Source of the DNA: Halorarum halophilum
Lineage (GTDB): Archaea > Halobacteriota > Halobacteria > Halobacteriales > Haloferacaceae
Assembly (NCBI RefSeq): GCF_013401515.1
Contig: NZ_CP058529.1
Coordinates: forward strand, 3,596,001-3,660,000
Length of the DNA: 64,000 nucleotides
Reading direction: 5' to 3'
Below are positions 2,654 through 24,447 of the stretch, piece by piece. Position 1 is the first letter of the stretch, and each line of letters starts with the position of its first letter. A program made the position numbers and the translations under genes. The notes below the pieces were generated by a model. That model made no database searches and was not told the DNA's origin. It saw only the letters and a program-made list of their open reading frames with translations.

Positions 2654-3373
2654 CTACCGCTCTCGCACCGCCGCGAGCACCTCGGTCAGTGCGTCGCTCG
2701 CCCGGTCGAGCAGCTCGCCACCGAGCGCCGCGTCCCCCGCACCCGGGTCCCCGACCACGCCGTTCCCGGTGAACTCGTCGCTGTCGTGCGCGAGGTTGAC
2801 GCCGCGGACCCACTTCCCCCACCGATCCGTCCCGCCCTCGCGCGCCTCGTCGATCCGTTCCTCGCGAACAAGTCCCGGCGCCACGTGTCGGAGCATCGCG
2901 GTCTCCAGTTTCCCGCCGTGGCCCATCTCCGCGGAGTGCTCTCCGACGGCCCTGAACCAGGTGAACGAGACCGCGTAGGCGCCGGTCGACCCGTCGCGCG
3001 AGACGCGGCGGGCGACCTCGGCCAGTGCCTCGAGGTTCCCCCCGTGACCGTTCACCAGCACGACCCGGTCGATGCCGTGGTACGCGAGGCTCTCCACCGT
3101 CTCGCGGACGTACGCGCGGAAGGTATCCGGCGACACCCAGAGGGTCCCGTCGAACGCCCGGTGCTCCTCGGCGACGCCGACGTGGACCGGCGGGGCGACG
3201 ACGACCCCGTCTCCGGCACGGTCCGAGGCGGCGTTGGCGACGGCCTGGGCCGTCAGCGAGTCGGTTCCGAGCGGCGCGTGGGGACCGTGCTGTTCGGTGC
3301 TCCCGACCGGGAGGAGCGCGGCGTCGGGCGCGGCCGCTCGCACCTCGGTCCAGGTCGCCTCGGTCAGCTCCAT
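2654..3373 (-). CDS. arfB: creatininase-family amidohydrolase, ArfB-like FAPy deformylase
   Basis: A 239-residue creatininase-family metal hydrolase. The metal ligands are visible: E27 and H29 in STEQHGPHAPLGTD (25-38), D38, and the NGHGGN loop at 108-113. In archaea, members of this family act as ArfB, removing the formyl group from the pyrimidine nucleotide made by ArfA, an early step of riboflavin and F420 biosynthesis. Start at ATG 3373, directly before the first helix; the upstream in-frame extension is low-complexity and is rejected. Other creatininase-type amidases cannot be excluded from sequence alone. The nearby mptD also belongs to pterin chemistry. Confidence 0.7.
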   Translation of the reverse strand: MELTEATWTEVRAAAPDAALLPVGSTEQHGPHAPLGTDSLTAQAVANAASDRAGDGVVVAPPVHVGVAEEHRAFDGTLWVSPDTFRAYVRETVESLAYHGIDRVVLVNGHGGNLEALAEVARRVSRDGSTGAYAVSFTWFRAVGEHSAEMGHGGKLETAMLRHVAPGLVREERIDEAREGGTDRWGKWVRGVNLAHDSDEFTGNGVVGDPGAGDAALGGELLDRASDALTEVLAAVRER

Positions 3374-9223: not shown

Positions 9224-9237
9224 GGAACTTCTCCCAG

Positions 9238-9407
9238 GAACCTCTTTTTCACGGGGGCCTCCTCGCTCGCTTCGCTCGCTCGTCGACCCCCGCCAAAAAC
9301 CCGTTCATGCTGTGGGATTCCTTCGGAATCCCACTGCTGACGGGAAATCTTCGATTTCCCGTAATGCCAAAACTCCACGAGCGAGGCCGTCGGCCTCGCT
9401 CGCGGTA
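9238..9407 (+). repeat. hairpin-chain element, copy A
   Basis: About 170 nt starting with a T-run (CCTCTTTTT, 9241-9249) just after etfA. Three perfect hairpins follow. The first (9312-9334) has arms GTGGGATTCC/GGAATCCCAC and loop TTC. The second (9340-9362) has arms ACGGGAAATC/GATTTCCCGT and loop TTC. The third (9378-9402) has 11-bp arms CGAGCGAGGCC/GGCCTCGCTCG and loop GTC. The spacers are TGCTG and AATGCCAAAACTCCA. A near-identical but longer copy in inverted orientation lies at 20088-20327 and a divergent copy at 24014-24219. No gene is present. The T-run may terminate etfBA. Confidence 0.85.
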
Positions 9408-9518
9408 CTGACACTGGTGCAACACGGGGTCCTGGCTGTTACCCAGAAAATCCGACAAACCGATGACGACCGGCCGGAAACACGAAACCGCTGGCATCCC
9501 TCGTCCCGCGTACCACCG

Positions 9519-20042: not shown

Positions 20043-20087
20043 TCGCGAACGACGAATCCGACCGAAGAATCGGTCGACGCAGTTTCC

Positions 20088-20327
20088 TACCGCGAGCGAA
20101 GGCGCGACCGAAGGGGGCGCCCTAGCGAGCGGGATTTTGGCACTGACGAGCGAAGCTCGTCTTGCGGCCAGAAACCGTCGGTTTCTGGCAGCATTACGGG
20201 AAATCGAAGATTTCCCGTCAGCAGTGTGATTCCGAAGGAATCCCACAGCATGAACGGGTTTTCCGGGGGTTCGACGAGCGAGCACGCCGGAGGCGCGCGA
20301 GCGAGGAGGACCCCCGCTAAAAGAGGT
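20088..20327 (-). repeat. hairpin-chain element, copy B (inverted relative to A)
   Basis: Read on the minus strand it starts with ACCTCTTTT directly at the korB stop and follows copy A base for base over most of its first 130 nt. The hairpins, by plus-strand position, are 20224-20246 (arms GTGTGATTCC/GGAATCCCAC, one mismatch), 20196-20218 (ACGGGAAATC/GATTTCCCGT), 20167-20189 (GCCAGAAACC/GGTTTCTGGC) and 20145-20161 (GACGAGC/GCTCGTC). The last two form a 48-nt block absent from A. It fills the convergent gap between the Cdc6-like gene and korB and probably holds the korAB terminator. Confidence 0.85.
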
Positions 20328-21191
20328 TCAGTAGAACTCGCGAACGAGGTCCATCGCGCCCTCGGGGGCGCCATCGTCGATCTCGTGCATCGGCGAGTCG
20401 AGGCCGTGCTGGGACTCGTAGGAGACGGAGTCCTCGTCCTGGTAGAGCACGCCCATGTACTCCTTCTCCGCGTCGAGGACGCGGTCCTTCGCGGCCTCGC
20501 GGTCGTGCGGGTCGTAGTCCTCGTCCGCGAGGTCGACCAGCGAGTCGCGGAAGTAGTCGTACGTGTCGACGTCGTTGAACGTCACGCACGGCGAGAACAC
20601 GTTCACGAAGCCGAACCCGTCGTGCTCGATCGCCTTCTGGACGATCTCCTGGTGGCGTAGCGCGTCGCTGGAGAACGACTGGGCGATGAACGTCGCCCCG
20701 GACGCGAGCGCGAGCGCGAGGGGGTTGACCGGGGGCTGTTTCGGCCCTTCGGGCGTCGTCGCCGTCTCGAAGTCCTCGCGCGAGGTCGGGGACGCCTGGC
20801 CCTTCGTCAGCCCGTAGATTCGGTTGTCCATCACGACGTAGGACATGTCGACGTTCCGGCGGACGGCGTGGACGAAGTGGCCCGCGCCGATGGAGTAGCC
20901 GTCGCCGTCGCCGCCGGCGACCATCACTTCCAGTTCCGGGTTCGCCATCTTGACGCCGGCGCCGACCGGGAGCGCACGGCCGTGGACGCCGTGGATGGCG
21001 TAGCTGTGCATGTACGTGCCGATCTTGCCGGAACAGCCGATGCCGGCGACGACGAAGGTGTTGTCGGGGTCGTTCCCCGTCTCCGCGAGCGCCTTCATCA
21101 TGCCGTTCATCGTGCCGAAGTCCCCACATCCGGGGCACCACGTCGGCTGCTTGTCGGACTTGAAGTCCGTGAATCTGACCTGGGAACTCAT
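20328..21191 (-). CDS. korB: 2-oxoacid:ferredoxin oxidoreductase beta subunit (KorB-like)
   Basis: A 287-residue thiamine-diphosphate subunit. WCPGCG (18-23) supplies Cys ligands of the proximal 4Fe-4S cluster, IGCSGKIG (50-57) continues the site, and the TPP/Mg motif is GDGDGYSIG (93-101) with DNRIYGLTKGQ (121-131). It decarboxylates a 2-oxoacid-CoA substrate and reduces ferredoxin. The length and flanking sequence resemble haloarchaeal KorB (2-oxoglutarate) more than PorB (about 312 aa), a judgement from memory. The start overlaps the korA stop by 3 nt, so the two are coupled. Repeat B begins at its stop codon. Confidence 0.82.
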   Translation of the reverse strand: MSSQVRFTDFKSDKQPTWCPGCGDFGTMNGMMKALAETGNDPDNTFVVAGIGCSGKIGTYMHSYAIHGVHGRALPVGAGVKMANPELEVMVAGGDGDGYSIGAGHFVHAVRRNVDMSYVVMDNRIYGLTKGQASPTSREDFETATTPEGPKQPPVNPLALALASGATFIAQSFSSDALRHQEIVQKAIEHDGFGFVNVFSPCVTFNDVDTYDYFRDSLVDLADEDYDPHDREAAKDRVLDAEKEYMGVLYQDEDSVSYESQHGLDSPMHEIDDGAPEGAMDLVREFY

Positions 21192-23908: not shown

Positions 23909-24447
23909 GATCGGTGGAGGCTGGTGTTAGTATGGGCGTCTCGGGTTTCGGTGGGTTGTTCGAGACGACCTCGAAAGCCCCCGGTTTCTCGACTCGGTGC
24001 GGCCGCTGTCGTTCGAGAGAGCTTCGCTCTCTCGTGATGCTGTCGGATTCTGTCGAATCCGACCGCTAACGGGAAATATTTGATTTCCCGCAATGACGAA
24101 AGGCGCTTTGCGCCTTTCGAACCACGCTCCTCGGCCGCTCGCTCCGCTCACGGCCTGCGGTGCTCGTCGGTCCGCGCCTTCGTCGAGAAGCCGGCCCCTT
24201 TCAGTCCCACCCGTGGGACGGTCAGCCGTCATCGCGGTGGTCCCCGGGCCTCCCCGGCGGGCGTGGCTCGCTCCCGTCAGTCGCTCGCGGTGCGCCCGCC
24301 GCATCCCTCCGACCGTCGGCAGGCCAACCAGCAGAGCGGGAATGGCAGGGGCCGCGGGGGCTCCCACAGTCGTCACTAGGAGACGCTTCACGCAACAGCC
24401 AGCTTCCCGCCCGACTCCGCTTCGAAAAGCTGCCGAACCGACGAACC
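23909..24447. other. 539-bp convergent intergenic region
   Basis: The gap between two convergent genes is occupied mainly by repeat C (24014-24330). An open frame on the minus strand (24093-24391, 'MKRLLVTTVG...') runs through the hairpins and is probably an artefact of the element. No promoter or RNA gene is recognised in the remaining flanks. Confidence 0.6.
24014..24330 (-). repeat. hairpin-chain element, divergent copy C, with GC-rich structured tail
   Basis: Four hairpins in the same order as copies A and B. At 24014-24034 the arms are CGAGAGAGC/GCTCTCTCG with loop TTC. At 24043-24062 they are TCGGATTC/GAATCCGA. At 24070-24090 they are CGGGAAAT/ATTTCCCG. At 24097-24119 they are CGAAAGGCGC/GCGCCTTTCG with loop TTT. 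The spacers TGATGCTG, CCGCTAA and CAATGA match those of A and B while the arms differ in step. A GC-rich tail follows with GTCCCAC/GTGGGAC (24204-24219) and GGCGGGC/GCCCGCC (24256-24300). On the minus strand the tail reads CGGGTGGGACTGAAAGGGGC. Confidence 0.75.

Follow-up and report, generated by a model that had tools for sequence, protein, structure and literature searches.

Two related elements within the window, by which we mean the whole 64,000-nucleotide stretch analysed here (C1:3596001-3660000 of a haloarchaeal genome of 4.28 Mb in 4 contigs), differ by a block of two hairpins, which raises the question of what this block is and whether it behaves as a unit that is gained and lost. An earlier note, made from the sequence alone, had described a 48-nt two-hairpin block present in copy B and absent from copy A, and had read it as a clean module, gained or lost at one junction, whose hairpins are interchangeable. 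The block was confirmed, copy A carrying one hairpin pair and copy B two, as were the positions given for its hairpins, GACGAGC-GAA-GCTCGTC and GCCAGAAACC-GTC-GGTTTCTGGC (Table 1), and the copy A junction, where the hairpin ACGGGAAATC...GATTTCCCGT runs through AATGCC into AAAACTCC without a break. The size was not confirmed: comparison of filled and empty sites shows that the added unit measures 51 nt, the figure of 48 having arisen because TGC(C) recurs at the junctions. On orthologous sites, the reading of a module cleanly gained or lost at a single junction held. The interchangeability of hairpins held only in part, since differing stems do occupy one junction but the unit is the hairpin pair and not the single hairpin.

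On the minus strand the 51-nt unit reads C-TGCCAGAAACC(GAC)GGTTTCTGGC-CGCAA-GACGAGC(TTC)GCTCGTC-AGTG; it begins after AATG and ends in AGTG. It adjoins the first unit of copy B, whose hairpins (20224-20246 and 20196-20218) lie behind CATG (20249-20252). The surrounding host element comprises the T-tract AACCTCTTTT, a G5/C5 hairpin (20263-20317), the junction CCCGTTCATG^, CCAAAA and a GC-rich hairpin. Folded as single-stranded DNA, the four-hairpin array of copy B reaches -40 kcal/mol against -16.7 +/- 2.9 for shuffled sequences (z -8.2), and the genome holds about a dozen related copies in other places; the array is therefore not a chance structure.

Table 1. Coordinates of the hairpin units and host elements in the window (CM, covariance model).
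Feature	Position	Strand	Evidence
Second hairpin-pair unit of copy B (the block of the earlier note), 51 nt	20141-20191	-	sequence; empty/filled comparison; length ladder 57 to 108; fold
Hairpin GCCAGAAACC/GGTTTCTGGC	20167-20189	-	sequence; fold
Hairpin GACGAGC/GCTCGTC	20145-20161	-	sequence; fold
First hairpin-pair unit of copy B, 57 nt	20192-20248	-	sequence; length ladder; CM match, 71.6 bits
Single hairpin-pair unit of copy A, 57 nt	9310-9366	+	sequence; CM match 9304-9372, 92.8 bits
Host 3'-end element of copy A, 3' of a + strand gene	9234-9419	+	sequence
Host 3'-end element of copy B, from the PorB stop codon (20328-20330)	20078-20330	-	sequence; element also at this gene end in congeners and further genera
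Third unit, 56 nt, nested at the TGATG^A linker of a different hairpin pair	24040-24095	+	sequence; CM match 24034-24101, 55.9 bits
Composite element, outer hairpins CGAGAGAGC/GCTCTCTCG and CGAAAGGCGC/GCGCCTTTCG enclosing the nested unit	24014-24119	+	sequence; empty outer pairs at L133 and L238

A consensus over 74 units, YGYY-hp1-TGCYR-hp2-RAYG, describes two adjacent hairpins within 51-59 bp, with conserved tags and linker. The commonest 5' tags are TGCT (27), TGTC (18), CGTC (11), CGTT (6) and TGCC (6), and the commonest 3' tags GATG (26), AATG (20), GACG (14) and ACTG (10), while the linker is TGCCA in many units of the sister genus g3 and TGCTR or TACTA elsewhere. Stems are mostly of 10 bp (7-11) and loops mostly of 3 nt. 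Twenty one-pair units could be aligned straightforwardly, with 98.6% of cells base-paired, and their stem covariation of 0.500 far exceeds that of shuffled units (0.175 +/- 0.017) or of slid partners (at most 0.095). Two-sided changes were found in 14 of 23 stem pairs, and a flanking C-G/T-A position beside hairpin 1 also covaries. The stems have diverged by compensatory change while tags and linkers stayed fixed. Units of the commonest type share the hp2 stem but not its loop, which reads TTC in 11 of them and the reverse-complementary GAA in 3 (L005, L010, L135, L140 and others); we infer that such a loop inversion could be a trace of single-strand or cruciform hairpin processing.

The same junction was found across copies with varying numbers of hairpins and varying stem sequences, which was the check that the note had proposed, and a fixed number and sequence everywhere, which would have refuted it, was not observed: among 98 distinct host elements from 4 genera, 56 carry no pair, 31 one, 10 two and 1 three, with inserts of about 0, 57, 108 and 164 nt respectively. 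Hairpins are added two at a time, which keeps their number even in every copy. Our first count used a length filter that could have hidden odd numbers; repeated without the filter, the scan agreed and gave no odd number among about 100 host elements, and the single hairpin was rejected as the unit. Apparent inserts of 27 and 60 nt, at L166 and at two-pair copies, proved to be pattern artefacts. At orthologous gene ends the number of pairs differs between close relatives. The PorB end carries two in the window's genome and none in either congener (G001 and G002), the EDMETDVSF end three in the window's genome, one in G001 and none in G002 and four others, and the DDELIY end one, none and two in the window's genome, G001 and G002, while the PorB end of H. 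gomorrense holds a pair with different stems. Units have been gained and lost repeatedly at these ends, although the direction, gain rather than loss, is an inference at most single sites. Pair units go in behind the CATG of the host element, and two-pair arrays of the window's genus nearly always consist of the same pairs in the same order (I-II).

In gene orientation the host element begins with the stop codon; after a gap of zero to about 20 nt come (G)AACCTCTTTT, a hairpin with a G5/C5 stem, CAAAACCCGTTCATG, CCAAAA and a GC-rich hairpin. A T-stretch with a TC/C is the confirmed intergenic terminator signal in Haloferax volcanii (PMC7237163); by this analogy the host element, a terminator-like 3' element with a T-tract, is likely to act as a terminator, although termination has not been shown. 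Exact matches to its anchor AAACCCGTTCATG number 10 in the window's genome and 9 and 16 in two congeners, against 0 to 2 for reversed patterns even with one mismatch allowed, and the anchor with its CAAAA partner occurs in 18 of 170 genomes and 4 of the 28 genera of the family. Comparison of the PorB protein places Halobonum tyrrellensis and Halobaculum (93-94%) closest among named organisms. Behind PorB the element was found in Halobonum, Halobaculum saliterrae, H. gomorrense and one MAG, and in more diverged forms in Halegenticoccus and Halobium. Since it occupies the same gene ends across genera, the host element has been inherited mainly vertically.

Units are not confined to this element. 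A covariance model recovers those of the window. It gives about 15 sites for the window's genome and a far larger number for relatives, mostly in genus g3; the raw matches (34 in the window's genome, 64 in G004 and 117 in G127) exceed the number of copies because palindromes match on both strands. The contexts found, namely the terminator element, another hairpin element and genes, have only the tag in common. The other hairpin element, GTCGTT[..]TGATGA[..]AACC, is itself repeated, and its linker holds nested units in the composite element of the window and at L160, L179, L186 and L189; at L133 and L238 the outer hairpin pair stands without a nested unit.

Within genes, units were found in genus g3, where they lie in frame in core enzyme genes; none was seen in the window's genome. 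Because many of the open frames that cross units in this GC-rich DNA are spurious, the count was restricted to genes backed by a Pfam or structure match. RrmJ of G127 has about 36 extra residues at about positions 103-137, absent from the orthologues of all 10 other genomes searched, and the underlying DNA reads GGCG, then TC-hp-GCCA-hp-GATG-TC-hp-TGCCA-hp-GATG, then CCGACGAG. In the aldo/keto reductase at L412, residues 3-89 and 109-274 match the contiguous segments 14-101 and 102-266 of 3d3f, an exact 19-residue insertion, and DapA of G004 and G127 share a 19-residue insertion that is gapped in 2yxg. Similar peptides occur in isopentenyl phosphate kinase, AroE, a TrpE-like enzyme, FAA hydrolase, arginine deiminase, a DUF58 protein and a symporter tail, each family being named by Pfam, with alignments less clean than for the three enzymes above. 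Comparison with uninterrupted homologues of RrmJ, DapA and aldo/keto reductase establishes intragenic insertion in frame at the level of sequence. The unit lengths of 57 and 51 are multiples of three. At L339, L354, L398, L412 and others, the in-frame units give a peptide like VDESRRLSSANQKSKISGD, which we found more surprising than the original block.

We consider it likely that the block represents a full copy of a small mobile repeat built of two hairpins (51-59 bp), comparable to dimeric REP or palindromic elements moved in trans. The module boundaries, the addition in pairs only, gain or loss at orthologous sites, the compensatory stem changes, the different insertion contexts and the in-frame insertions within genes of a related genus are directly observed, and what follows on movement is inferred. 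The unit would fold as single-stranded DNA into two adjacent hairpins, and an enzyme would recognise the unpaired tags, the linker and the folded shape rather than the stem sequence. Insertion would take place directly 3' of a short target ending in YG, such as CATG, GATG or GGCG, and because the unit itself ends in RAYG, the target would be recreated and pairs would accumulate in tandem arrays. In the window's genus most units lie in the spacer of the conserved terminator-like element. Single-stranded movement, the enzyme and, at most single sites, the direction remain inferences, and no population data record a recent jump. Y1 transposases (PF01797) are absent from all 3 genomes of the window's genus; g3 and genomes of genus g5 do have them, without unit-like pairs at their flanks. 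The enzyme is therefore unidentified, and the units of the window's genus may now be immobile or be moved by a different enzyme. The recurrence of the I-II array in one order leaves it possible that arrays were copied between elements, so that recombination between host elements may add to the spread within this genus. A bolder reading, which we hold to be less likely than not, is that these units represent an archaeal class of mobile two-hairpin elements whose enzyme reads shape and single-stranded tags, leaving the stems free to diverge with compensation while the unit keeps moving, builds tandem hairpin arrays in terminators and adds peptides of 17-19 residues to core enzymes.

Ectopic gene conversion or template switching between host elements would make the pairs mere internal polymorphisms in tracts bounded by AAAACCCGTTCATG and CCAAAA. 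The junction sequences on either side are indeed nearly identical in all copies, and the I-II order recurs at most two-pair sites of the window's genus; such exchange could explain part of the spread within it. We nevertheless regard this as unlikely to be the general explanation, as the same unit class stands behind TGATG in another element and within genes that lack the surrounding host element. Much less support was found for the idea that the hairpins are selected RNA modules, retained for a 3' UTR role in stability, termination or protein binding and not mobile as such. Their position just after stop codons behind a T-tract, the strong RNA fold and the compensatory stem changes favour it, but over half of the host elements lack any pair and units also lie within coding sequence, which makes it very improbable. 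No Rfam family matched in the window at the gathering score.

The units could also be terminal-only PATEs, that is, fused ends of IS200/IS605-type elements left after core deletion, as in Haloquadratum. The size is similar (52 bp there), and the two palindromes, the lack of a terminal inverted repeat and the insertion behind a short oligonucleotide (PMC3119063) agree. Yet the window's genome has neither TnpA nor TnpB, and the 3' hairpins (CCCCGCC/GGCGGGG-AGGATGTCA) at those TnpB loci that are clearest in relatives are unlike the units. We searched for TnpA and TnpB with matching end hairpins, found none and dropped this reading, which we hold to be very unlikely.

On the preferred reading, that of a trans-mobilised repeat, the closest known systems are the CGTC-tagged REP dimers that Di Nocera et al. 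2013 (PMC3733652) treated in bacteria, among them Rickettsia RPE-4 and RPE-6; that study found no transposase for the dimers, and its body text does not treat archaea. Both systems have paired palindromes with the tags outside (head-head dimers), heterodimers, in-frame intragenic copies and no dedicated transposase, the last fitting the lack of unit pairs at Y1 genes and of any Y1 gene in the window's genus. CGTC/TGTC-like tags and a CCA-type tail between the palindromes occur in part of the units only. The head-head arrangement is the sole one in about 100 haloarchaeal host elements. The differences are the archaeal host, the pair as exclusive unit in the host element, and nested and tandem insertion in a terminator-like element. 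REP stems measure 8-9 bp with loops of 4-5 nt, unlike the 10 bp and 3 nt that prevail here, and the CGTC-type tag is retained in g3 but has drifted in the window's genus (mostly TGCT/AATG); we therefore do not file the units as members of that family, although they work like one. Rickettsia palindromic elements likewise insert in frame within unrelated metabolic genes, as units do in g3, but are bacterial and reviewed as about 150 bp long (PMC10969869) against 51-57 bp. The PATEs and SMRs of Haloquadratum walsbyi (PMC3119063) are haloarchaeal, transposase-free and small, with 52-bp two-palindrome forms, insertion into the palindromes of other elements and unexplained mobilisation. The units differ in having no relation to IS605 ends that we could find and in lying inside genes in g3, which the relevant sections of that paper do not report; SMRs have terminal inverted repeats and measure about 110 bp, or 80 bp in one case, so the units do not qualify as SMR-A. 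GTAG REPs and BIMEs with RAYT share hairpin dimers near gene 3' ends, but the units have no GTAG tag and flank no RAYT or other Y1 gene. RepRanger (PMC12306157) counts archaeal REPs in intergenic regions without mentioning haloarchaea by name. No such family was described for haloarchaea in the open-access literature searched, and an earlier account elsewhere cannot be excluded.

That literature reports CGTC-type REP dimers and RPE-like in-frame palindromes for bacteria, where their movement is an open question (PMC3733652). The near-fixed unit length, the empty and filled orthologous sites, the turnover between congeners and the dozens of copies in some relatives offer a system in which to seek the mobilising enzyme, and the g3 insertions show one way in which conserved archaeal proteins acquire short peptides.

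Unit turnover also makes orthologous gene 3' ends structurally unlike between close species. Other irregularities of the host element were seen at single loci. At L132 and L134 (G001) the terminator heads (AACCTCTTTTGCGGGGGTCCTGACCTGAACCTCTTTTGCGGGGG) are duplicated ahead of the first hairpin. At L133 and L238, on the minus strand, another hairpin pair (GGTT[..]TCATCA[..]AACGA) lies within the first hairpin of the host element and not at CATG. At L164 (Halobonum, G020:C59), near position 3052, the host element breaks at CATGC into unrelated DNA resembling an inserted element.
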